A DNA stretch of 64,000 bases from Hahellaceae bacterium (GTDB taxonomy: Bacteria; Pseudomonadota; Gammaproteobacteria; Pseudomonadales; Oleiphilaceae): the NCBI GenBank assembly GCA_016744695.1, contig JADGDV010000010.1, positions 62,001 through 126,000 of the forward strand, in the 5' to 3' direction. The notes beneath the pieces were generated by a model that was given only the letters and a program-made list of their open reading frames with translations, ran no database searches and had not been told where the DNA came from. Below are positions 1,364-35,574 of the stretch, one piece after another (the stretch's first letter is position 1; each line of letters starts with the position of its first letter). A program made the position numbers and the translations under genes.

Positions 1364-2387
1364 TGAGCAGGCTGGTGGGGCGGATAAGAAAGTAACCAAG
1401 GTTGGTCGTGTGGATGCTGCCGCAATGCTATTGATGTCTTTAGGTGAAGCGGATGCCGCACAAATACTAAAGCACATGGGGCCAAAGGAAGTACAGCGAG
1501 TCGGTACGGCAATGACTCAGTTAGCCGACGTGACTCAAGAGCAGGTAGAAGCGGTTACTGGTGAGTTTCTTGAAGCCGTGGGTGATCAGACCGGAATGGG
1601 AATCGGGGCTGATGACTATATTCGTACCATGCTGACCCAAGCCTTGGGTGAAGATAAAGCGTCTAGCCTAATTGACCGTATTCTTATTGGCGGAAACACC
1701 ACCGGACTCGACACTTTAAAATGGATGGATGCGAGAGCCGTTTCAGATATTATTCGTTACGAACACCCTCAAATACAAGCTATTGTTATATCATACCTTG
1801 ACCCAGACCAGGCTGCAGAGATCCTCGCTAACTTTGATGAAAAAGTCCGTCTTGACATTGTATTGCGTGTCGCTGCGTTAGACTCCGTTCATCCGCAGGC
1901 ATTACAAGAATTAAATGCTATTCTAGAAAAACAGTTCTCAGGCAGCTCATCAACGAAAACCAGCAAAATTGGTGGTGTAAAACGTGCGGCAGATATCATG
2001 AACTTCTTCGATAGTACTATTGAAGGTGAGTTGATGGATAGCATCAAAGAAACTGATGCTGATTTGGGTGGTGAGATTGAAGACTTAATGTTTGTATTTG
2101 ATAACCTTAAAGAAGTTGATGATCGCGGCATACAAGCCTTGCTTCGCGAAGTGTCTTCGGAGGTGTTGATTATTGCCCTTAAGGGCTCTGATGAAGAAAT
2201 GAAAGAAAAAATATTCAAGAACATGTCTAAACGAGCGGCAGAGTTGCTACGGGATGACCTAGAGGCCAAGGGGCCTGTTAAGGTCAGTGAAGTTGAAGGC
2301 TCACAAAAAGATATTCTTACTATTGCTCGTCGTATGGCTGATGCTGGTGAAATATCATTGGGTGGTTCTGGCGAAGAGATGATTTAA
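1350..2387 (+). CDS. fliG: Flagellar motor switch protein FliG
   Basis: FliG forms the top of the C-ring, binds FliF and contacts the stators, converting ion flow into rotation. The 345-residue product has the usual length. The middle domain contains the EHPQ sequence (near residue 138) of the FliG/FliM interface, and the C-terminal domain carries the charged torque helix (DDRGIQALLREV, near residues 256-267). The start overlaps fliF, implying translational coupling; a second ATG two codons in is an alternative. FliH follows after a short gap. Confidence 0.97.
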   Translation: MQMTDEQAGGADKKVTKVGRVDAAAMLLMSLGEADAAQILKHMGPKEVQRVGTAMTQLADVTQEQVEAVTGEFLEAVGDQTGMGIGADDYIRTMLTQALGEDKASSLIDRILIGGNTTGLDTLKWMDARAVSDIIRYEHPQIQAIVISYLDPDQAAEILANFDEKVRLDIVLRVAALDSVHPQALQELNAILEKQFSGSSSTKTSKIGGVKRAADIMNFFDSTIEGELMDSIKETDADLGGEIEDLMFVFDNLKEVDDRGIQALLREVSSEVLIIALKGSDEEMKEKIFKNMSKRAAELLRDDLEAKGPVKVSEVEGSQKDILTIARRMADAGEISLGGSGEEMI

Positions 2388-2411
2388 TTATGAGCCGTAA
2401 TGAGGTTCTGA

Positions 2412-3401
2412 GTGACTGATAAAAAAAGTAAGCGCATTCCAGCTGATGAACTAACGGCCTATGAGCGTTGGGAATTACCTGCCATGGAAATGGGAGGCAA
2501 TGACATCGTGAGAACTCGAGTCTCAACGGTTGAGATGGCCGTTAAACCACTGACGGCGGCGGATTTAGAAAATATCCGCAAAGAGGCTTACCAAGAAGGT
2601 TTGGAGCAGGGTAAGACGGAAGGTTTTTCTGCAGGCCATAAAGAGGGCTTTGATAAAGGGCATCAAGAAGGTCTGGAGAGTGGAACGCAACAAGGCTTGG
2701 AAGAAGGAAGGGCAACAGGTCAGCAATTAAAACAAGCAGAAGTTGATGAGAATTTAAAGCAGCTGCGCAGCATAATGGAGCAGCTTCTAGACCCTATACG
2801 GCTTCATGATGATGAAATAGAAGAAGCACTACTGAATTTAGTCTTAGCTATCAGTCGTTCAGTTATCAAGAGAGAAGTATCGCTTGATAGTCAGCAGATT
2901 ACGGCTGTGATAAGCGATGCACTTGCATTACTTCCCCCTACCGCAAGTAATATAAAAATATCAATTAATGCGAGCGATATCGATAGCGTATCAACCATTG
3001 TTGAATCCATTTCCGGTGGTGCTCAATTGATCTCATCGGATGAAATTCTTCCGGGTGGCTGTAAAGTTGAAACCTTACACAGTCTGATTGATTTCACTAT
3101 TGAAAAACGATTTCAGAAAACAGTTCAGCAAATGTTAGATCGACATTCGTCAAGTGTCCCATTAGATGAAGCGCCCGATCTTGCTGAATCAATGGATGAT
3201 ATGACTGATTTTCATCGGGAAATACTTGAAGAGCCTATAGTTGAGGCTGCTGAAGTTGAAACTCCGATAATTGAAGAGCCTATGGTTGAAGCTACTGAAG
3301 TTGAAGCTCCGATAATTGAAGAGCCTATAGTTGAGGCCGTTGAAGTTGAAACTCCAATAGTAGAGCCCCCAATTACTGAAATGCCTAATGAACCTTCCTG
3401 A
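2412..3401 (+). CDS. fliH: Flagellar export ATPase regulator FliH
   Basis: FliH binds FliI at the export gate and restrains its ATPase activity. The 329-residue protein starts with GTG, as no ATG is available in frame. It carries the typical Gly-repeat helix (repeated EG.xxG heptad-like units, residues about 58-102), then the FliH C-terminal domain (about 115-245). It is longer than usual because of an acidic C-terminal tail built from three 15-residue tandem repeats rich in E, P, I and V. Its last 14 bases overlap fliI. Confidence 0.9.
3228..3362 (+). repeat. Three 45-bp tandem repeats in the fliH tail
   Basis: Units at 3228-3272, 3273-3317 and 3318-3362 each encode a 15-residue unit (first copy [15 protein letters not shown]) with a few substitutions. 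The period is a multiple of three, so copy-number change would keep the reading frame. The repeat lies after the conserved FliH domain. Confidence 0.9.
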
Positions 3402-4749
3402 CCGCATTAAGAAGTATCAAGAGCAGGTTCCTAGTGACATCTTGCCTGAGGTTACCGGGCGCTTAACGCGTATGGTGGGCTTAACGCTAGAAGCGGTTGG
3501 TTGCCCTATGGTAGTGGGTGAGCGTTGCCTGATTGCGGGTAGTGGTTTGAAGCCTGTAGAAGCTGAAGTGGTTGGCTTTGATGGGGATCGAATGTTTTTA
3601 ATGCCATTAACTGCAATTGATGGTTTGAAGCCAGGTGCGCGTGTAATCCCCATTGATAGTGCAGGACATATTCCTGTTGGATTTAATCTTTTGGGTCGAG
3701 TGATTAACGGCGCGGCAGAGCCTTTAGATAGTAAAGGTCCGCTACTACCCGACTCTCATGTTCCTTATAACGGCGAAAGTATAAACCCATTGGATCGAGC
3801 ACCTATTCGAACATCTATGGATGTGGGAATTCGAGCAATTAATAGTATGCTCTCGGTGGGAACTGGCCAGCGATTGGGTTTGTTCGCTGGAAGCGGCGTG
3901 GGCAAGAGTATGCTGCTAGGCATGATGACCAAGTTTACATCAGCAGATATTACTATTGTGGGGTTGATCGGTGAGCGTGGCCGAGAGGTTAAAGAATTTA
4001 TTGAAGATATACTTGGGCCAGAAGGGTTGGCTAAGTCAGTAGTGGTTGCTGCACCCGCAGATGACTCTCCATTAATGCGCTTAAGAGCAGCGATGTTAAC
4101 GACACGTATAGCGGAGTATTTTAGAGACCAAGGAAAGAATGTGCTGCTATTGATGGATTCTCTAACACGTTATGCTCAGGCTCAGCGAGAAATAGCGTTG
4201 GCTGTGGGTGAACCTCCCGCGACAAAAGGGTACCCGCCTTCAGTGTTTGCCAAGTTACCTCAATTAGTTGAGCGAGCAGGGAATGGCGTGCCAGGTGGTG
4301 GCTCAATTACTGCGTTTTATACCGTATTAACGGAAGGTGATGATCAGCAGGACCCTATTGCCGATGCATCAAGAGCCATACTGGATGGTCATATTGTTTT
4401 ATCCCGAAGCTTGGCTGAAGAGGGACATTACCCTGCCATTGATGTTGAGGCATCAATCAGTCGAGTGATGCCTCACATTGTAAGTGAAGAGCATATGAAA
4501 GCAGCGCAAAAATTTAAGCAGGTTTATGCGCGCTATCAGCAGGCGCGTGATCTTATTAGTGTTGGCGCCTATGTGCCGGGTTCAGACCCTGAAACAGACT
4601 TTGCTATTGAGCGAATAGACATAATGAAAGCTTTTCTGCAACAAAGCCTAGAGGGTAGTTCTCCTTATTCAGAAAGTGTTGAGCAACTTATTCAAGTGAT
4701 GAATATGCCACCTTCTGGTGGTCAGGTTGCTCCGTCGAGGCCTGTTTAA
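3388..4749 (+). CDS. fliI: Flagellum-specific export ATPase FliI
   Basis: FliI is the hexameric ATPase of the flagellar type III export apparatus, related to the F1 beta subunit. The 453-residue product shows Walker A (GSGVGKS, residues 168-174), the [10 protein letters not shown] segment, and the Walker B region ending in [14 protein letters not shown]. The length is normal. The start lies inside the end of fliH, and fliJ follows after 12 bases, giving the standard fliH-fliI-fliJ unit. Confidence 0.97.
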
Positions 4750-6111: not shown

Positions 6112-8235
6112 ATGGGTATTGATCTCAGCCAGTTTCACCAAGTGTTCTTCGAAGAGAGTTATGAAGGTCTGGATGTTATGGAGTCTGCGTTGCTTAATTT
6201 GCAGCCAGATACCGTTGATTCAGAAACCATTAACGAGATTTTCAGGGCCGCTCATTCAATAAAGGGTGGTAGCGGAACATTCGGCTTTATTGATGTCGCT
6301 GACTTTACGCATGTTATCGAGACTTTACTTGATGAAATCCGAAGTGGAACGCGAAAAATCACTTCTGAAACGGTTGATCTGTTTCTTCAGTCGGTAGACT
6401 GTATACGTAAGCTGATTCAACAGCATGATGCTGGCGAGCCTTGTGTAATACCAGAGGCTGTAGAGCTTAAAAAAGTATTTGAAGGTATTCTTTCTGGTGG
6501 TGATTCAGAAAATGAAAGTGTCTCATCACCTGAACCCGCGAGTACTATTACAGAGATTGACGATCAAACGGGTGATGGTTCGCAGGCTGATAGCCCGTTA
6601 ACTCATGGTTGGAAAATCTACTTTAAACCTGAGCTTGATATTCTTAAAACAGGTAACGATCCACTGCGCATGTTTCGTGAGTTAGCGTCTTTGGGCGCTT
6701 TAAGTATCACCGCAGACATATCACAAGTTCCCCCTATTGGCTCTATAGACCCTGAAGCCTGTTATATGGCTTGGGAACTAGAACTTGATGCTGATGTGAG
6801 TAAATCAGCGGTTGATGAAGTGTTCGAGTGGGTTGTTGATGAAAGTGAGTTGCGTATAGAGCCCTTGGGTTCTGACGATGCGGTGTCTGACGTTAAGCCT
6901 GAAGTATTGGTTGAAACGGCGATTGAAGAAATAACACTTGCGCCTACTGCTTCTACCCCTGAAGTGGTTGTACAGCCAGAAGAAATGACCAGCAAGCCTA
7001 AAAAAGATGCCTCTAAAGTTGAAGTATCTTCTATTCGTGTTGGCATTGATAAGGTTGATGACCTGATAAATATGGTGGGTGAGTTGGTGATCACTCAGTC
7101 CATGCTCGGTGAGCTTGGTCTTGATTTTACCATGGATAGTCTTCCTCGCTTACTCGAAGGTATAGAGCAGTTAAGTCAGAATACGAGAGAGTTACAAGAG
7201 AGTGTGATGCGTATTCGAATGCTGCCTATTAGCTTCACGTTTAGCCGATTCCCTCGTTTGGTTCATGATTTAAGTCGCACAATGAACAAAAAAATAGAGC
7301 TTAAATTAACGGGTGAGCAAACAGAGCTTGATAAAACGGTGATGGAGAAAATAGGCGACCCTCTGGTTCATTTGGTTCGTAATTCTCTCGATCATGGTAT
7401 AGAAATGCCTGAAGACCGAGTAAAGGCTGGCAAGCCTGAAACAGGTACCATTACATTAAATGCATTTCATCAAAGTGGCAATATTGTCATTCAAATTATT
7501 GATGACGGTGCAGGGCTAAATAAACCAAGAATTCTCCAAAAAGCAATAGAGAAGGAACTTGTTTCAGAAAATGACAATCTATCGGACGATCAGATTCATG
7601 ATTTGATTTTCAAACCCGGTTTTTCAACCGCAGATCAAGTCTCTGATATTTCTGGTCGAGGCGTAGGTATGGATGTTGTCCGACGGAATATAAATGAGCT
7701 TAATGGTTCCGTCGAAGTAGAGTCAACGGAAGGTCAGGGCAGTGTCTTTACTATCCGGTTACCCTTGACCTTAGCTATTTTAGATGGGCAATTAATTAGA
7801 GTAGGGGACAAGGTTTATATCTTACCACTGATTTCTATTGTTGAATCTATTCAATCATTTCAGGGTATGCTACATCGCGTGGTAGGTGGTTGTGACCTCT
7901 TACGACTTCGTGATGAATATGTACCTATTATCAAGCTTTCAAGCATCTTTAATATTAAGTCAACAACGCAAGAGATGGAGGATGGGCTACTGGTTGTAGT
8001 GGAAGGTGACAATATGAAAGTAGCGATTCTAATTGATGACCTTGAAGCGCAGCAGCAAGTGGTTATTAAGAGCCTTGAAGAAAACTACAAACGGGTTGAT
8101 GGTGTATCAGGTGCAACTATTTTAGGAAACGGAACGGTATCTCTTATTTTAGATATCCCAGGCTTAATAAAGCTTGCTGGGGTGCAGCGCTATGAATATA
8201 AAATGGCAAACAATGATGATGATCGCGCGGCATGA
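6112..8235 (+). CDS. cheA: Chemotaxis histidine kinase CheA (system 1)
   Basis: A 707-residue CheA. Domains in order: Hpt/P1 with phospho-accepting H48 (AAHSIKGGSGTFGF); an acidic linker; a P2-like CheY-binding region (about 165-250, with the GNDPLRMFREL and CYMAWELELD patterns); dimerisation P3 (about 300-370); ATP-binding P4 with N box (HLVRNSLDHGIE) and GRGVGMDVV; and CheW-like P5 (about 555-690). Spacing to cheW is 16 bases. It should phosphorylate the neighbouring CheY and CheB. No receptor gene is present in this cluster. Confidence 0.95.
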   Translation: MGIDLSQFHQVFFEESYEGLDVMESALLNLQPDTVDSETINEIFRAAHSIKGGSGTFGFIDVADFTHVIETLLDEIRSGTRKITSETVDLFLQSVDCIRKLIQQHDAGEPCVIPEAVELKKVFEGILSGGDSENESVSSPEPASTITEIDDQTGDGSQADSPLTHGWKIYFKPELDILKTGNDPLRMFRELASLGALSITADISQVPPIGSIDPEACYMAWELELDADVSKSAVDEVFEWVVDESELRIEPLGSDDAVSDVKPEVLVETAIEEITLAPTASTPEVVVQPEEMTSKPKKDASKVEVSSIRVGIDKVDDLINMVGELVITQSMLGELGLDFTMDSLPRLLEGIEQLSQNTRELQESVMRIRMLPISFTFSRFPRLVHDLSRTMNKKIELKLTGEQTELDKTVMEKIGDPLVHLVRNSLDHGIEMPEDRVKAGKPETGTITLNAFHQSGNIVIQIIDDGAGLNKPRILQKAIEKELVSENDNLSDDQIHDLIFKPGFSTADQVSDISGRGVGMDVVRRNINELNGSVEVESTEGQGSVFTIRLPLTLAILDGQLIRVGDKVYILPLISIVESIQSFQGMLHRVVGGCDLLRLRDEYVPIIKLSSIFNIKSTTQEMEDGLLVVVEGDNMKVAILIDDLEAQQQVVIKSLEENYKRVDGVSGATILGNGTVSLILDIPGLIKLAGVQRYEYKMANNDDDRAA

Positions 8236-16193: not shown

Positions 16194-17198
16194 GTGCAAG
16201 ATTTACTTTCACAAGACGAAATTGATGCGCTCTTACATGGCGTTGATGACGGTGACATTGATACAGATGAGGACCTTGACGAAGAGGGTGTTAGGTCGTA
16301 TGACCTTGCCAGTCAAGATCGAATAGTTCGTGGGCGAATGCCTACATTGGAGATGATCAATGAGCGATTCTCCCGCTATACTCGAATTAGTCTGTTTAAT
16401 TTATTGCGACGTAATGCTGACGTGGCCACCGGTGGAATACAGATACTGAAGTTTGGAGAGTACATTCACACGCTTTATGTACCTACCAGTTTGAATCTTG
16501 TAAAAATACGTCCTCTTCGGGGGACCGCTTTATTTATTTTTGATGCTAAATTAGTGTTTAAATTAGTGGATAACTTTTTTGGTGGTGATGGCCGCCATGC
16601 AAAAATTGAAGGACGTGAATTTACGCCCACTGAAATTCGAATTGTGCAAATGGTACTTGAACAAGTTTTTATTGACATGAAAGAAGCATGGACAGCTGTG
16701 ATGAAGGTTGATTTTGAGTATGTAAACTCTGAAGTTAACCCTGCTATGGCGAACATTGTAAGTCCGAGCGAAGTGGTTGTTGTGAGCACCTTTCATATAG
16801 AGTTAGATGGAGGAGGAGGTGACTTACATGTTGCTATTCCTTACTCCATGATTGAGCCTATTCGTGAAGTGTTGGATGCGGGGGTTCAAAGTGATATAGA
16901 TGATGTAGATGAACGCTGGGTTACTTCGCTTCAAAGAGATATTCTTGATGCTAAAGTGCCTATCAACGCGACATTGGTAAAGAAACAGATCTCATTGAGA
17001 GATATTTCAAACCTTGAAGCGGGTGACGTTATTCCGATTGATATACCTGATACGGTGACGATGACTGCTAATAACGTTCCTATGTTTGAGGCAAAAGTCG
17101 GGAGTTTAGGCGAAAGTTTAGCCCTTAAAGTGATGAGCAGAGTTAAGCGCCCAGGGTCCTTCCTTAGTAAAGCTGAGAGTGATAAAAGTGATGAGTGA
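16194..17198 (+). CDS. fliM: Flagellar motor switch protein FliM
   Basis: FliM is the C-ring protein that binds phospho-CheY. The 334-residue product starts with GTG. The CheY-binding peptide (LSQDEIDALLHG, residues 5-16) is at the N-terminus, followed by the FliM middle domain (about 45-225) and the SpoA/FliN-like C-terminal domain (about 250-320). It overlaps fliN by eight bases. The N-terminal peptide closely resembles repeats in the second CheA and the C-terminus of CheZ. Confidence 0.97.
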   Translation: MQDLLSQDEIDALLHGVDDGDIDTDEDLDEEGVRSYDLASQDRIVRGRMPTLEMINERFSRYTRISLFNLLRRNADVATGGIQILKFGEYIHTLYVPTSLNLVKIRPLRGTALFIFDAKLVFKLVDNFFGGDGRHAKIEGREFTPTEIRIVQMVLEQVFIDMKEAWTAVMKVDFEYVNSEVNPAMANIVSPSEVVVVSTFHIELDGGGGDLHVAIPYSMIEPIREVLDAGVQSDIDDVDERWVTSLQRDILDAKVPINATLVKKQISLRDISNLEAGDVIPIDIPDTVTMTANNVPMFEAKVGSLGESLALKVMSRVKRPGSFLSKAESDKSDE

Positions 17199-26654: not shown

Positions 26655-26856
26655 ATAAATGCTTGAAATGGATGTGAATAAAATTCTTAGCGTGCAGTAA
26701 TAAACGCTTACTGATATTAAACATTAAAAAAAACTGGATACCCGTCGAACTCAAGCTAGACTACAGTTATACAATTACTTTAAACACGTAATGCTATGAA
26801 ATTAAACAGGGTTCTGAATTTTTTGGGGTTCCAGCTTCGGCATTTTGGAGGTCGAC

Positions 26857-27243
26857 TTGGATAAGAATATGAAAATCTTGGTGGTTGATGATTTTTCGAC
26901 CATGAGGAGAATTATTAAAAACCTGCTGAGAGATCTTGGCTTTACCAATGCAGATGAAGCAGATGATGGTAATACCGCTTTACCTATGCTTCAAACGGGG
27001 AAATATGATTTTCTCGTGACTGATTGGAATATGCCAGGTATGACCGGTATAGATTTGTTGCGAGCAGTAAGAGCTGATGATAGTTTGAAGAGTTTGCCCG
27101 TTTTGATGGTTACGGCGGAAGCAAAGCGAGATCAAATTGTAGCTGCAGCTCAAGCTGGCGTTAATGGTTATGTTGTTAAACCGTTTACCGCAGCAGTACT
27201 TAAAGAAAAAATCGATAAGATTTTCGAGCGAATCGATTCATGA
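26857..27243 (+). CDS. cheY: Chemotaxis response regulator CheY (system 2, motor type)
   Basis: This CheY is the likely motor-binding regulator. TTG at 26857 is chosen as start because a perfect GGAGG lies five bases before it and relatives begin MxKNMKIL; the ATG at 26869 has poor spacing. The 128-residue receiver contains [11 protein letters not shown], phospho-acceptor Asp in [10 protein letters not shown], the Thr in VTAEAK and the Lys in VVKPFTA. It heads the cheYZAB-motCD operon. No clear promoter element was identified in the 200 bases before it. Confidence 0.95.
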
Positions 27244-27257
27244 TCGCAGGCTAGGGC

Positions 27258-28052
27258 ATGACAAATAAAGAAGATGACTTGCAAAACATGTCAGGATTTG
27301 AAGAACAATTAAAAAGTCAGGCGGCTAACCTAAAAGATCTAGTTGACTCTGGAGATATCTCTGAAGCACTAAAAGTCATTGCTGACTTAAATGCGACAAG
27401 AGATCAAAGCCTTTATCAGGAAGTAGGGCGGCTTACCCGGACCCTGCATGAGTCAATACGTAATTTTCATATTGATACGGCCGGTCAGAGTGATGGTCAG
27501 GATGATCTTTCTAAAATTGATGATGCGTCTGATAGGTTGTCTTATGTTGTTGACATGACAAATAAGGCTGCAAACAGAACGTTAGACTTAGTTGAAGAGA
27601 GTATGCCAATTGCTTCAGAAATGAAGGAGGAGGCTAGTATTCTCAAAAGCGACTGGGGTAAGTTGCGTCGTCGTGAAATGAAACCTGATGAATTTCGTTT
27701 GTTGTATAAACGCATGGATTTGTTTCTTGATAAATTAAGTAAACAATCTGATCAAGTTTATCGCAATTTGTCCGACATACTATTAGCACAAGACTTTCAG
27801 GATCTTACTGGTCAGGTTATTAAACGAGTAACCGGCCTGGTTCAGGAAGTTGAAGAAAATTTAGTAAGTTTAGTTACTATGGCCGGTAAGGTGGATCAAA
27901 TTACCGGAACCGTTCATGAAGGATTTGAAAAAGAACAACAACAAGAAGATATTGAACGTGGCGAAGGACCTCAAATGCATGCTGAAGAGCGTGTTGATGT
28001 GGTTTCAAGTCAGGACGATGTGGATGATTTACTCTCCAGTCTTGGTTTTTGA
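27258..28052 (+). CDS. cheZ: CheY-P phosphatase CheZ
   Basis: CheZ dephosphorylates CheY-P. The 264-residue, mostly helical protein has the catalytic motif LAQDFQDLTGQVIKRV with the active Gln, and ends with the CheY-tethering peptide SQDDVDDLLSSLGF. It lies 14 bases after cheY, and its end overlaps the ribosome site of cheA. The C-terminal peptide strongly resembles FliM residues 5-16. Confidence 0.96.
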   Translation: MTNKEDDLQNMSGFEEQLKSQAANLKDLVDSGDISEALKVIADLNATRDQSLYQEVGRLTRTLHESIRNFHIDTAGQSDGQDDLSKIDDASDRLSYVVDMTNKAANRTLDLVEESMPIASEMKEEASILKSDWGKLRRREMKPDEFRLLYKRMDLFLDKLSKQSDQVYRNLSDILLAQDFQDLTGQVIKRVTGLVQEVEENLVSLVTMAGKVDQITGTVHEGFEKEQQQEDIERGEGPQMHAEERVDVVSSQDDVDDLLSSLGF

Positions 28053-28063
28053 GGAGTGCTTGC

Positions 28064-30274
28064 ATGGGGTTTGAAGCGGATGAAGAGATTCTTCAGGATT
28101 TTTTAGTTGAATCTGGAGAAATTCTTGAGCTTCTGTCAGAACAACTGGTGGATTTGGAGCGTGATCCTGATGATTCGGATTTGCTCAATGCGATATTTCG
28201 CGGGTTTCATACAGTAAAAGGCGGAGCAGGCTTTTTACAATTAGATGCGCTAGTTGAATGTTGCCACGTGGCTGAGAATGTTTTTGACATTCTTCGTAAT
28301 GGTAAACGCAGAGTTAATGCAGAGTTAATGGATGTAGTGCTACAGGCACTTGATGTCGTTAATGAAATGTTTGAGCAATGTCGAAACAGAGAACCTCTTG
28401 TTTCTGCGTCGCCAGAACTTCTTGCTGCACTGGCTATATATGCTGTGCCAGAAGCAGATGCTCCTGCTCCTGTCGTTGAAGAATCAGCACCTACGCCATC
28501 AGTTGAAGAGCCTAAAGGTGACATTACAGACGATGAATTCGAGCAATTATTAAATGCTTTAGATGAGCCCGAATCTACGGAAGGAACTGATGTTGTTGAT
28601 GACTCTACACCTAAATCAGCTGCTTCTGATGAAGAAATAACCGATGACGAGTTTGAAAAACTACTTGATGACCTTCATGGTTCAGGTAAGCATGGAAACG
28701 TTGAAGCGGCTAAACCTACGCCGCCGGCCTCGGAGCCTGAGTCTGGTGAAATTACAGATGATGAGTTTGAACGGCTGTTAGATGATTTACATGGTAAAGG
28801 ACAGTTTAGTGAAGATTCGGTTTCGGGTAGTGCTGACACTACATCCGAGTCTAAGCCTGCTTCACCTGCTGCCGGTACACCAGAATTAATTGATGATAAT
28901 GAGTTTGATCAATTACTTGATGAGCTTCATGGTCAGGGTAAAGGGCCTACAATCAATGGGCCTGATAGCGGGGGTTCTAAACCTAAACCTAAACCTCCTG
29001 TTCCGCCAAAACCTACGCCAGTTCCTAAGCCTAAAGTTGCTGCAAAACCTCCTGCAGCACCTAAACCAGAGGCCGCTGCGAAAAAGCCAGCAGGTAAAGA
29101 GCAGTCCATTGCTACAGAGACAACCGTTCGTGTAGATACCCGCCGACTTGATGATATTATGAATATGGTTGGCGAGCTGGTATTAGTTCGAAACCGTTTA
29201 AAACGTCTTGGGGATGAAAGCGAAGAGGAAGCCATGCAGAAAGCGGTTTCCAACCTTGATGTGGTAACCGGAGATCTTCAATCTGCAGTTATGCAGACTC
29301 GAATGCAACCTATTAAAAAGGTGTTTGGTCGTTTTCCACGTGTTGTACGTGATTTGGCTAGAAACCTTAAAAAAGAAGTTAATCTTGTTCTACAGGGTGA
29401 AGAAACAGACTTAGATAAAAACCTTGTTGAAGCATTATCCGATCCACTTGTTCACTTGGTGCGTAACTCGGTTGACCATGGTATTGAAACACCTGATGTT
29501 AGAGAGGCTGCAGGTAAACCTCGCATTGGTCGTGTTATTTTAGCGGCTGAACAAGAAGGTGATCATATTCTGTTATCTATAGACGATGACGGTGCAGGAA
29601 TGGAACCTGATGTTCTTAGGCGAAAAGCCGTAGAAAAAGGTTTATATGATGAAGATGCCGCTGAACGATTAACGGACAATGAATGTTTTAATCTTATATT
29701 TGCAGCAGGCTTCTCAACCAAGACGGAAATCTCTGAAGTTTCCGGTCGTGGTGTGGGTATGGACGTTGTTAAAACTAAGATCTCACAGTTAAACGGAACA
29801 ATATCAATTGATTCAGAGAGCGGAAAAGGCTCACGTATTGTTATTAAGGTCCCATTAACACTGGCTATTATGCCTACGTTGATGGTGAATCTAGATCAAC
29901 AGTCATTTGCTTTTCCTCTTGTGAGTGTTGTCGAAATTTTCCACTTGGATCTGTCTCAAACAAACATTGTTGATGGCCAGGAGTGTATTGTTGTTAGAGA
30001 CAATGTATACCCTCTTTTTCATATAAAACGATGGTTAGTTAAAGGCGCTGCCGGTGAGGAAGATGGAGAGTCTGCACATGTGGTTATTGTTTCGGTGGGA
30101 ACCAAGCGTGTAGGATTTGTGGTTGACCAGTTGGTCGGCCAGGAAGAAGTGGTTATTAAGCCCTTAGGTCAAATGTTGCATGGTACAGCTGGAATGGCTG
30201 GAGCGACTATTACCGGTGATGGACGAATTGCCCTGATTCTTGATATTCCAAGCTTGCTGCAACGTTATGTATAG
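28064..30274 (+). CDS. cheA: Chemotaxis histidine kinase CheA (system 2)
   Basis: CheA of the main motility pathway. ATG at 28064, seven bases after GAGGAG, is preferred over an upstream in-frame codon (736 residues). Domains: Hpt/P1 with the His in FHTVKGGAGFL (residues near 50); a long linker (about 125-345) with four copies of an acidic LL motif and then a Pro/Lys-rich stretch; P3 (about 350-420); P4 kinase with HLVRNSVDHGIE and GRGVGMDVVKTK; and P5 (about 600-735). No folded P2 domain is apparent in the linker, unlike in the CheA of system 1. Confidence 0.95.
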   Translation: MGFEADEEILQDFLVESGEILELLSEQLVDLERDPDDSDLLNAIFRGFHTVKGGAGFLQLDALVECCHVAENVFDILRNGKRRVNAELMDVVLQALDVVNEMFEQCRNREPLVSASPELLAALAIYAVPEADAPAPVVEESAPTPSVEEPKGDITDDEFEQLLNALDEPESTEGTDVVDDSTPKSAASDEEITDDEFEKLLDDLHGSGKHGNVEAAKPTPPASEPESGEITDDEFERLLDDLHGKGQFSEDSVSGSADTTSESKPASPAAGTPELIDDNEFDQLLDELHGQGKGPTINGPDSGGSKPKPKPPVPPKPTPVPKPKVAAKPPAAPKPEAAAKKPAGKEQSIATETTVRVDTRRLDDIMNMVGELVLVRNRLKRLGDESEEEAMQKAVSNLDVVTGDLQSAVMQTRMQPIKKVFGRFPRVVRDLARNLKKEVNLVLQGEETDLDKNLVEALSDPLVHLVRNSVDHGIETPDVREAAGKPRIGRVILAAEQEGDHILLSIDDDGAGMEPDVLRRKAVEKGLYDEDAAERLTDNECFNLIFAAGFSTKTEISEVSGRGVGMDVVKTKISQLNGTISIDSESGKGSRIVIKVPLTLAIMPTLMVNLDQQSFAFPLVSVVEIFHLDLSQTNIVDGQECIVVRDNVYPLFHIKRWLVKGAAGEEDGESAHVVIVSVGTKRVGFVVDQLVGQEEVVIKPLGQMLHGTAGMAGATITGDGRIALILDIPSLLQRYV
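28520..28933 (+). repeat. Four copies of a FliM/CheZ-like motif in the CheA linker
   Basis: The copies start at CheA residues 153, 191, 229 and 274 (nt 28520, 28634, 28748 and 28883). The pattern is [I]-[TD]-D-[DN]-E-F-[ED]-x-L-L-x-x-L-(H-G); copies 2-4 end in LHG and copy 1 in ALD. The spacing is 38, 38 and 45 residues, separated by Pro/Ser/Glu-rich linkers. At the DNA level the copies are diverged, so this is protein-level conservation rather than recent duplication. Confidence 0.88.
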
Positions 30275-33066: not shown

Positions 33067-33235
33067 ATTTATTTAATACGTGCTAATAAGCATACATAAA
33101 CGCGTCAAAATAACGTTTCAATTGGTTATCAATAATATGAGTGGCAATATTGTGCCCATTGATAAACTATTTAAGTTATTTGGTGAGTTGTCGATATAAG
33201 TTATTCATATAAAAACAATGATAAGAGGTTACGCT

Positions 33236-34018
33236 GTGCGTATCTGGGCAATTGCAAATCAGAAGGGTGGTGTTGGGAAAACAACAACAACCGTTGCATT
33301 AGGTGGGTTATTGGCCAAGGAAGGAAAGAGAGTCTTGTTGATGGACTTAGACCCTCATGGCTCATTAACCAGCTATTTTAGATATGACCCTGATACGATT
33401 GAGCACAGTGCATTTGACCTGTTCTTACATCAGGGAAAGGTACCCAAAGACTTACCATCAACCCTTATTGTTAAAACCAGTATGCCAGGATTAAAATTAT
33501 TGCCTGCATCAACCGCTCTCGCAACATTAGAGCGAAGAATGGTCGGAGTTGATGGCATGGGTTTGATAATTTCACGTGCGTTAGCCGTTCTTTGGGATGA
33601 TTTCGACTATGTGCTTATAGATAATACGCCTTCACTCGGTGTATTAATGATCAACGCGCTAGCCGCAAGTCAGCATCTGATGATACCCGTGCAGACTGAA
33701 TTTCTGGCCCTTAAGGGTTTAGAAAGAATGATGCATACCTTGGATATGGTAATAAAATCTCAAAAGAGCAAGTTGACCTACACCATTATACCGACCATGT
33801 TTGATAGACGAACTCAGGCATCTCTTCAAAGTCTGCGTGCGGTTAAAAATACATGGGGTGAACAAGTATGGCGATATGCAATTCCGGTGGACACCAAGTT
33901 TCGGGATGCCAGTAGAATGGGAATAACACCTTCAGAGTTAGATGAGTCAACACATGGTGTTAGAGCCTACAAAAAGCTGCTTGAAAACCTAAAGGAAAAA
34001 CAAACAGCCAACGTTTGA
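33236..34018 (+). CDS. parC: ParA-like ATPase ParC for polar localisation of chemotaxis arrays
   Basis: A 260-residue ParA/Soj-type ATPase. GTG at 33236 is preferred over ATG at 33218 because AAGAGG lies seven bases before it and relatives start MRxWAxANQ. Walker A is KGGVGKTTT, the A' Asp lies in LMDLDPHGS, and Walker B is in YVLIDNTPS. Genes of this type between motD and cheW in Vibrio and Pseudomonas encode ParC, which recruits chemotaxis arrays to the old pole together with ParP. The role here is inferred from family and place. Confidence 0.88.
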   Translation: MRIWAIANQKGGVGKTTTTVALGGLLAKEGKRVLLMDLDPHGSLTSYFRYDPDTIEHSAFDLFLHQGKVPKDLPSTLIVKTSMPGLKLLPASTALATLERRMVGVDGMGLIISRALAVLWDDFDYVLIDNTPSLGVLMINALAASQHLMIPVQTEFLALKGLERMMHTLDMVIKSQKSKLTYTIIPTMFDRRTQASLQSLRAVKNTWGEQVWRYAIPVDTKFRDASRMGITPSELDESTHGVRAYKKLLENLKEKQTANV

Positions 34019-34060: not shown

Positions 34061-34456
34061 ATGAAAGATAAGGGTAAACAGTCAACTGTCATATCGCCTG
34101 AAGAGGCTATGAATAGTTATTTTGGTGATCTTTTTAGTGAAGGTTGCTCTGTTGTGCCTGATGAAGTTGGTTTGCTTTCACCCGCATTAGAATTTTTGCC
34201 TTCTGCATCGGTAGAGTCTGGATACTGTTTAATACCTATTATCAATTTAAGCACACGAATAGTTGATTTTACAAAACCTCAGCGATCGTTAGTAGAGTCA
34301 TTTATTTTACTTTTATGGGGGGGGTACCTTTTACGTCAACCTGTTTATGGAAAGCTACGTATTTATGTGCATGAATACTGTAATGAAATGAGTATGGAGT
34401 ACCACCTGTTACTTGATTTAGCTAATAAAAATCAGGCTGGGGGAGAGGGGAAATGA
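34061..34456 (+). CDS. Unrecognised 131-residue protein between parC and parP
   Basis: Not recognised. The 131-residue product has no signal peptide or clear membrane segment, though residues 90-102 are hydrophobic (FILLLWGGYLL). Residues 13-25 read PEEAMNSYFGDLF, matching residues 12-24 of the following ParP-like protein (PQLAVQDYLNDLL) at the P, A, Y, D and L positions and in spacing. The ATG at 34061 has a poor ribosome site; its stop overlaps the next start by four bases (ATGA), so the two are coupled. A part in ParC/ParP array positioning is plausible but unproven. Confidence 0.7.
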   Translation: MKDKGKQSTVISPEEAMNSYFGDLFSEGCSVVPDEVGLLSPALEFLPSASVESGYCLIPIINLSTRIVDFTKPQRSLVESFILLLWGGYLLRQPVYGKLRIYVHEYCNEMSMEYHLLLDLANKNQAGGEGK

Positions 34457-35574
34457 GTCGTAAACGATACAGCGAGACCATTAATCCTCAGTTAGCGGTG
34501 CAAGATTACCTTAATGATTTGTTACAGCAAATGCCAACAACCTCTGTGCTTGATGAACTAAAAAAAGCAGATGATGAAAAGGCCGCGTTAGATGCTGAGA
34601 TATTGGCTAAAGTAACGGCAGAAAAACGTGCAAAAACACAAAGCAAGGCTCAGAAGTCAGTAGTGCGACGTTCAAAAAATTCAGTTTTACTTAATCCTGC
34701 CGTAAACTCAAGCTCCACTGAGCCTGATAAATCATTAGCCTCTCAACGTTTGGAGAAGAAAAGAGCGCGTGCGCGCGCCCCTCAAACAGAATTCCGAGAG
34801 CCTTTAATATTAAAAACAGCTCCTGTATTAAATAGTGTATTTAAAACGGCCCCGACTCATGTAGCTCAAGAGGGTGATGGCACTGCATTACCTGAATTAA
34901 ATGTAGTGACAGAAAATCGTCAAGATAAGAGTTTGGCTAAAGCGCGTAACGACAAAGAATTGACTGCTAAAAAAAGAGTTGCAGAGCCTTGGCCAAAGAA
35001 AGAGACAGAGCCAGAAATGCAACCAGCTAATAGGTCTGGCTCAGCACATAAAGAGGGTAGATTAAAATCAGAACTTCTTGAGCCCACTAAGCAGTGGCTT
35101 ACAACAGGCAAGCCAGAATGGGCTAAGGGGCGTTTTGAATGTTTGATTTTTACCGTGGCAGGGTTAAAACTAGCGGTTCCATTAGTCTCATTAGGCGCTA
35201 TTCATACAATAGAAAAGGAGCTAACCCCTTTAGTAGGAAGGCCCTCTTGGTTTTTAGGGTTATTAACCTTAGGAGACCGAAATATTCGCGTTGTTGATTC
35301 CGCTCAATGGATTATGCCTGAAAGATACAATGAAAATGTTAAAGATAATTATAAATTTGTTATCCGGTTAAATGACAGTGATTGGGGAATGGCTTGTGAC
35401 TCTGTCGCGCAATCCTTTTCTATAGCACCAGAAGAAGTCCGGTGGCGTACTAATCGAGGAAAAAGACCTTGGCTAGCTGGAACCGTTATTGAGCATATGT
35501 GTGCATTGATGGATGTAGCCGCAGTATCTTGGTTGCTTGATGACGCTGAAAAAAATGAATTTTCTCCTATTTAA
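34453..35574 (+). CDS. parP: ParP-like CheW-domain protein
   Basis: A 373-residue protein with a short conserved start (residues 12-24), a long basic, low-complexity middle (about 40-215) and a C-terminal CheW-like (AIF) domain (about 225-360: FECLIFTVAGLKLAVPLVSL, then GLLTLGDRNIRVVDSAQWI). This layout is that of ParP, which links ParC to receptors and CheA at the pole. It stands between parC and cheW as in Pseudomonas and Vibrio. The N-terminal half is too variable to assign by sequence. Confidence 0.83.
   Translation: MSRKRYSETINPQLAVQDYLNDLLQQMPTTSVLDELKKADDEKAALDAEILAKVTAEKRAKTQSKAQKSVVRRSKNSVLLNPAVNSSSTEPDKSLASQRLEKKRARARAPQTEFREPLILKTAPVLNSVFKTAPTHVAQEGDGTALPELNVVTENRQDKSLAKARNDKELTAKKRVAEPWPKKETEPEMQPANRSGSAHKEGRLKSELLEPTKQWLTTGKPEWAKGRFECLIFTVAGLKLAVPLVSLGAIHTIEKELTPLVGRPSWFLGLLTLGDRNIRVVDSAQWIMPERYNENVKDNYKFVIRLNDSDWGMACDSVAQSFSIAPEEVRWRTNRGKRPWLAGTVIEHMCALMDVAAVSWLLDDAEKNEFSPI

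Follow-up and report, generated by a model that had tools for sequence, protein, structure and literature searches.

Repeated FliM-like helices in the P1–P3 linker of F6-type CheA kinases as candidate CheY-docking motifs

The kinase CheA of the second chemotaxis system in the window, as we call the whole 64,000-nucleotide stretch of DNA analysed here, carries four copies of a short motif, ITDDEFExLLDxLHG, in the linker between its P1 and P3 domains. The motif is a feature of the whole class of CheA to which this protein belongs, a point that an earlier, sequence-only reading of the window had not considered. We lean modestly towards putative docking of CheY, and perhaps of CheB, by these linker motifs, which is the best available reading of the sequence comparisons set out below.

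The gene order around this cheA, flhF-flhG-fliA-cheY-cheZ-cheA-cheB-motAB-parC-parP-cheW (with flhF, flhG, fliA and motAB named by eye), fits CheA class F6, and the assignment was made from that order. F6 is what we take to be the class name for the CheA of such loci. The name is used in PMC7184735. A Pfam scan detected P1, P3, P4 and P5 in the protein and no P2. An AlphaFold2 model of the single chain, with an input alignment of 57 CheAs, showed a confident helix just after P1 (residues 122–131) and then a linker (about 141–361) that is disordered except for four short helices, all at motif copies; linker blocks had low pLDDT values of 36–58, and the blocks of the four motif helices reached 71–77. 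The sequence-only reading had seen no P2 in this kinase, and the model agrees, with no P2 fold or other folded domain between P1 and P3.

The copies follow the pattern I-[TD]-D-[DN]-E-F-[ED]-x-L-L, and three of the four run on as D-[DE]-L-H-G (Table 1). Residue numbers are counted from the TTG start at 28049 and fall by 5 if the ATG at 28064 is used; counted approximately from that ATG, the four spaced copies occupy the residues 153–290 given by the sequence-only reading, which had also rightly described three copies, here copies 2–4, as ending in LHG. The pattern given in that reading matched this CheA four times, as against no match in 20,000 shuffles of the same protein, and the six frames of the whole window yielded four matches. 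Outside the copies the linker is rich in Pro, Ala, Glu, Ser and Lys, and conservation within the P1–P3 linker is clearest at the motifs. Copy 3 also gave a Pfam match to SHOCT (1.2e-6), covering profile positions 12–27 of 28. We rejected SHOCT (PF09851) membership because the match is partial and internal to the protein, SHOCT being a C-terminal short domain, and read it as a chance likeness. A 131-aa ORF on the forward strand between parC and parP (34061–34456) had no Pfam match; phmmer found no match to it in the other 100 loci, and BLASTP no similarity to ParP.

Table 1 Features of the window that bear on the linker motif (residue numbers of the motif-bearing CheA counted from the TTG start).
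Feature	Position	Strand	Remarks
Folded P2-like domain of system 1 CheA	6607..6882	+	Residues 166-257; no motif in that CheA
fliM	16194-17198	+	FliM residues 5-16, LSQDEIDALLHG, at 16206..16241
cheY of the same system	26845..27243	+	
cheZ	27258..28052	+	Tail SSQDDVDDLLSSLGF at 28005-28049 resembles CheA motif
cheA	28049..30274	+	741 aa from TTG; alternative ATG at 28064
CheA P1/Hpt	residues 13-104		
CheA motif copy 1, ITDDEFEQLLNALDE	28523..28567	+	Residues 159-173; AlphaFold2 helix 162-170; no LHG end
CheA motif copy 2, ITDDEFEKLLDDLHG	28637..28681	+	Residues 197-211; AlphaFold2 helix 199-209
CheA motif copy 3, ITDDEFERLLDDLHG	28751..28795	+	Residues 235-249; AlphaFold2 helix 237-248
CheA motif copy 4, IDDNEFDQLLDELHG	28889..28933	+	Residues 281-295; AlphaFold2 helix 283-294
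CheA P3	residues 358-417		
CheA P4	residues 464-604		
CheA P5/CheW	residues 611-739		
parC (ParA-like ATPase)	33218..34018	+	
parP (CheW-like C-terminal domain)	34453..35574	+	

Counting motif copies in the CheA linkers of relatives had been proposed from the sequence alone. We searched 276 genomes of the window's class, taken as Gammaproteobacteria, and used 100 further high-scoring CheA loci, leaving out seven high-scoring rows (G275, G067, G044, G072, G229, G173:C293 and G190). A lower-scoring set of 41 comprised 40 of 42 listed rows (G238:C59 and G173:C237 left out) and the system 1 CheA of the window; set A3 held 57 of the 101 high-scoring CheAs and set A4 held 38 of the 41 (L191, L197 and L208 left out). 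With a strict regular expression, the motif was present in 100 of the 101 F6-type CheAs, the window included, at one to four copies each (two in 48, three in 38, one in nine and four in five). In the exception, L121, cheA is split into two ORFs (2410–3687 and 3548–4744), of which the 5′ ORF bears two copies; the split reflects either a frameshift or an assembly error. By comparison, 40 of the 41 lower-scoring CheAs were without the strict motif, the one carrier (L186) being rather close to the F6 type, and a looser expression added one divergent copy in L200. Over 240 copies, positions that the search expression leaves free were themselves conserved (E7 in 79%, D11 in 94%, L13 in 82% and G15 in 82%).

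Profile searches of whole genomes placed the motif at cheA as well. A 22-residue motif profile matched 33 of 96 genomes (E up to 0.01). All four matches in the window's own genome fell inside this cheA and none elsewhere; in 32 of the 33 matched genomes the matches lay on the contig of, and in or beside, their cheA, and in G067 they lay on a contig other than that of its cut-off cheA match. When 299 genomes of the phylum were searched (E up to 0.001), 54 had motif matches, all 54 of them in the window's class or closer among the matches listed. Among 80 named loci, 46 carried the strict motif. Those named Pseudomonas and Stutzerimonas had three to four copies in 11 of 12 loci, and further carriers were found in Marinobacter, Shewanella, Alteromonas, Photobacterium, Salinivibrio, Stenotrophomonas, Dyella and Acidithiobacillus; the Acidithiobacillus CheA is only 35% identical, yet keeps the motif, and its gene follows cheY and a short cheZ-like gene. 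In the same 80 loci the motif was not found in the CheAs of Helicobacter, Campylobacterales, Nitrospirae, Gallionella or Firmicutes, nor was it found in one low-scoring Pseudomonas CheA, L317. Two Lysobacter CheAs carry degenerate copies that retain a DxLLDxxHG-like part (DLEAILDQVHG and DFEALLDAAHG in L185; DFDSLLDAFHGKG in L304). Among titles and openings of abstracts, a scope that left subscription literature mostly outside, we found no published description of the motif, and a search of the PDB gave no precedent for it (best E 0.98, unrelated); the FliM peptide used as a PDB query returned no match either.

We then set the distribution of the motif against that of the P2 domain. Pfam P2 models found no match in 38 other CheAs scanned and were not among the 25 commonest of 34 families for 57 F6-type CheAs; because these models miss P2 elsewhere too, the lack of a Pfam match is by itself weak evidence. 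Indeed, the P2 models are described as insensitive, with P2 not found in over half of CheA homologues (PMC10782961). The sequence-only reading had also given the system 1 CheA (6112–8235) a P2-like region. The part of that claim that stands is a folded domain in the P2 position, modelled by AlphaFold2 with a pLDDT of 90.7 and a strand-helix-strand-strand-helix-strand order; its identity as P2, suggested by position and modelled topology, is a candidate one and not proven. Foldseek returned only weak alpha/beta matches to it, none with E below 0.001; the 50 listed included no CheA P2, and no solved P2 was matched when a profile of the domain's sequence served as the query. A profile seeded with this domain detected P2-like domains (E < 1e-3) in 24 of the 41 lower-scoring CheAs, a lower bound because it misses at least two P2-looking domains seen by eye (L190 and L216), versus none of the 101 F6-type CheAs. 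None of the 24 CheAs with a detected P2-like domain had the motif, and the two motif carriers of the lower-scoring set, L186 and L200, were not among them. The motif arm thus shares with P2 its place between P1 and P3 and the proposed job of holding CheY or CheB, whereas it has short repeated helices instead of a fold. The drawing of Pseudomonas putida CheA with a Pfam-based CheY-binding domain (PMC11978298) needs reconciling with a P2-less reading.

Other CheA linkers held sequence elements of their own. A different motif, [YF]G[FL]FxxAPGxP, occurred in four copies in L216 (CheA at 1477–3858, reverse strand) and in one copy each in L190 and L312, and was found in none of the 101 F6-type CheAs. 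Three beta-lineage CheAs with cheZ in the locus (L310, L311 and L315) had neither the motif nor a P2 visible by eye; a short DW[DS]AL segment common to their linkers may be a comparable site in single copy.

The resemblance of the motif to the FliM N-peptide and to CheZ, claimed from the window alone, proved to be well above background in both profile and 10-mer scans. The N-terminal EIDALL peptide of FliM docks CheY-P in the alpha4/alpha5 groove (PMC9126983), and CheZ and FliM share one face of CheY (PMC3774744). We scored 2,186 windows from alignments of CheA, CheB, CheW, CheY, CheZ, MotA, ParC and ParP with a profile of FliM N-peptides (31 in all, one of them from the window and the rest from 30 loci): the CheZ tail scored 27.4 and the CheA motifs 25.8, 25.7 and 17.5, against 14.5 for the best non-motif window. 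With a CheZ profile the motif ranked next after CheZ itself, by a narrow margin (14.2 and 13.8 versus 12.4). When a FliM N-peptide was used as query against 726,946 10-mers from 4,211 ORFs, those scoring 27 or more were 103 from CheA, 57 from CheZ and seven others, one of which belongs to the split cheA; all 103 of the CheA 10-mers are linker motifs (102 by the expression, plus ISADEFEALL of L075). At a score of 24 or more, 18 other 10-mers appeared, two of them from the split cheA. Among the ORFs of the window between 24001 and 38000, the top five 10-mers were the CheZ tail and the four motifs.

Part of this likeness is a generic helix-capping grammar. Such a grammar combines a capping box with a hydrophobic staple, that is, a hydrophobic N′ residue, Ser or Thr as N-cap, Glu at N3 and a hydrophobic residue at N4. 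Among the 65 windows with a helix-capping pattern, only the CheA motifs reached the motif's score, the best other window scoring 8.8. A degenerate DNA pattern of the short motif found 21 sites in the window's own genome, including FliM and three CheA copies, versus nine for a reversed control, so that the nine-residue pattern alone proves little; the CheA motif profile recovered neither FliM nor CheZ in that genome at E 0.01.

The three peptides nonetheless differ in detail. The FliM N-peptide and the CheA motif share [IL]-[ST]-x-[DE]-E-hydrophobic-[DE]-x-L-L and a helix within a flexible segment, but the motif sits in the kinase and not in the motor, has an extra turn (DxL) before HG and occurs in up to four copies. 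Position 6 is Phe in nearly all motif copies, although the expressions, which require Phe or Tyr there, miss degenerate copies and so cannot support a claim of an invariant Phe; FliM has Ile or Val at this position and CheZ mostly Val, and the motif is therefore not a plain copy of either. The CheZ C-terminal tail, QDDVDDLLSSLGF, matches the CheA motif in its hydrophobic spacing (6-9-10-13) and is of almost equal length, but it forms the end of a phosphatase, is present once and ends in GF; its score against the CheA motif (13.9) is weaker than that of FliM (25.6). The CheZ tail is a known CheY ligand. In one pair of loci (f52; L120 and L125) the motif has lost its LHG tail (ALLNQRD and LLQMRE), and FliM (EVDALLK/R) and CheZ (ends GI) are altered too; among some 20 genomes, a correlated change of the FliM, CheZ and CheA tails was clear in all three proteins only in this pair. 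Very short CheZ-like proteins of 157 and 163 aa immediately precede the motif-bearing CheAs of L299 (3522–3995) and L200 (2702–3193), ending in INQDDVDALLAELGI and FNQDEVDALLSELGL, respectively.

FliM- and CheZ-type helices on a flexible arm, in the place of P2 and next to cheY, make CheY docking the simplest reading. The linker would act as a flexible arm with four short, self-capped amphipathic helices, and the most likely ligand of each would be a receiver domain, that of CheY in the first place and perhaps that of CheB. The CheB receiver is a second candidate ligand by analogy with P2. Docking would take place in the alpha4-beta5-alpha5 groove, where the FliM N-peptide and the CheZ tail also bind. 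The kinase might in this way replace one folded P2 domain with one to four peptide sites on a tether and raise the receiver concentration near P1. Binding of CheY or CheB, the groove involved, the multivalent mode and a competition with both motor and phosphatase are what we infer from these comparisons; the competition between motor and kinase for CheY proposed in the sequence-only reading is possible.

The CheYs themselves are consistent with a conserved docking face. In 96 CheYs of these loci the alpha4-beta5-alpha5 face is conserved. In the transfer of an F6-type CheY to an F7 CheA, which is of the P2 type, ten CheY positions changed, of which three face P2 and five face P1, as mapped on the E. 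coli P1–P2 complex (PMC7184735); the F6 states at CheY positions 92, 94 and 103 are found in 82, 92 and 94 of our 96 CheYs, respectively. The weakest step of the CheY-docking reading is that the FliM N-peptide prefers CheY-P over CheY about 20-fold (PMC7355467); a faithful mimic of FliM would therefore favour the product over the substrate. The motif would thus need to be tuned, perhaps by Phe6, or else would act as a buffer for CheY-P at the array.

The main rival, which the sequence-only reading missed, is the published ParP-binding region of the same linker. This region of Vibrio CheA, the LID, was reportedly described by Ringgaard in 2014. The CheW-like domain of ParP binds the LID, which reportedly lies between P2 and P3 and is confined to species with ParC and ParP (PMC5706961, PMC7534058), and ParP is the sole measured partner of this linker region that we found for Vibrio (PMC5706961). 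If the motifs were a LID and nothing else, they would anchor CheA at the pole through the CheW-like domain of ParP and would not bind CheY. The setting is indeed alike: the motifs, the most clearly conserved part of the linker, lie between P1 and P3 of a CheA encoded with parC and parP, as in the same kind of CheA from Vibrio sp. HA2012, which has three motifs and parC/parP beside cheA. By eye, the linkers of Vibrio L278 and Photobacterium L263 have little in common beyond the motifs and a short segment following the final copy, so that the LID very probably includes the motifs, and in ParP-bearing species the motif arm is probably also the ParP-binding LID, in whole or in part. The motif, however, also occurs outside the ParC/ParP species to which the LID is reportedly confined. 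Ten motif-bearing genomes have no ParC (best match 108–130 bits, true ParC scoring from about 200 bits upwards and chromosomal ParA no higher than 137) and no ParP above the CheW level (38 bits, up to 43 in one scan), and they keep one to four copies. The ten are G137, G008, G001, G172, G261, G020 and G152 (no ParP above 38 bits; 3, 2, 4, 3, 2, 1 and 1 copies, several being drafts of 91–100% completeness), the complete genome of Acidithiobacillus YTS05 (a strict copy plus a looser one) and two Dyella (with two copies apiece). G023, which likewise lacks ParC and any ParP above the CheW level, has degenerate copies only, and the genome of L200 was not counted because it has both ParC and ParP. 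Since ParP diverges, and some parC loci (for example, L102, L126, L131 and L133) have no ORF above the CheW level, a divergent ParP may be missed, which makes the absence of ParP less sure than the clear-cut absence of ParC. Copy number did not differ with the presence of ParP (2.49 in 63 loci with it versus 2.29 in seven without; permutation p 0.57). As genomes without ParC keep the motif, it is unlikely to serve ParP binding alone, and we regard a LID-only role as unlikely.

Binding of the helices to another part of the array, be it the P1 or P4 domain of CheA itself, CheZ (bringing the phosphatase to the array), CheW or CheV, appears quite improbable to us. A cheZ match in 94 of the 101 loci would suit CheZ as the partner, but the CheZ tail is itself of the same type as the motif, pointing to CheY as a shared ligand, and the single-chain AlphaFold2 model leaves the helices, at moderate confidence, in a disordered linker. 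Among the seven loci with no cheZ match, L064 and L068 have no ORF just upstream, L070 and L076 have short unclassified ORFs, and in L044, L128 and L130 cheY is the gene immediately upstream of cheA, a search of the locus having shown no cheZ between them; that these last three keep the motif speaks a little for CheY over CheZ as the constant partner. We also consider it very unlikely that the linker is simply acidic and of low complexity, with a repeat that arose by chance or acts as a spacer: the SHOCT profile does match 44 of 57 F6-type CheAs (E up to 0.1), as a generic helix might, but the conservation, over 240 copies, of positions on which the search expression sets no condition and the restriction of profile matches to cheA in the window's own genome argue against it.

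A broader proposal, which we put forward only tentatively and consider rather doubtful as a whole, is that kinase linker, CheZ tail and FliM N-peptide use a single peptide grammar to address a single CheY groove. The F6 arm, with its one to four copies, would then be a multivalent CheY/CheB capture device replacing P2 in Pseudomonas, Vibrio, Shewanella and their kin; where ParP is present, the copies would also tether the kinase at the pole, and the load of CheY would then compete with anchoring of the array.

Over half of CheA homologues are without a detected P2 according to PMC10782961. The repeats described here suggest how P2-less kinases might hold CheY, and they offer a concrete candidate docking element for the polar-flagellum kinases of Gammaproteobacteria. 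Docking by the motif would give a reason for the changes in the CheY face after a move to a P2-type kinase, and its distribution suggests that the LID may have a second partner.
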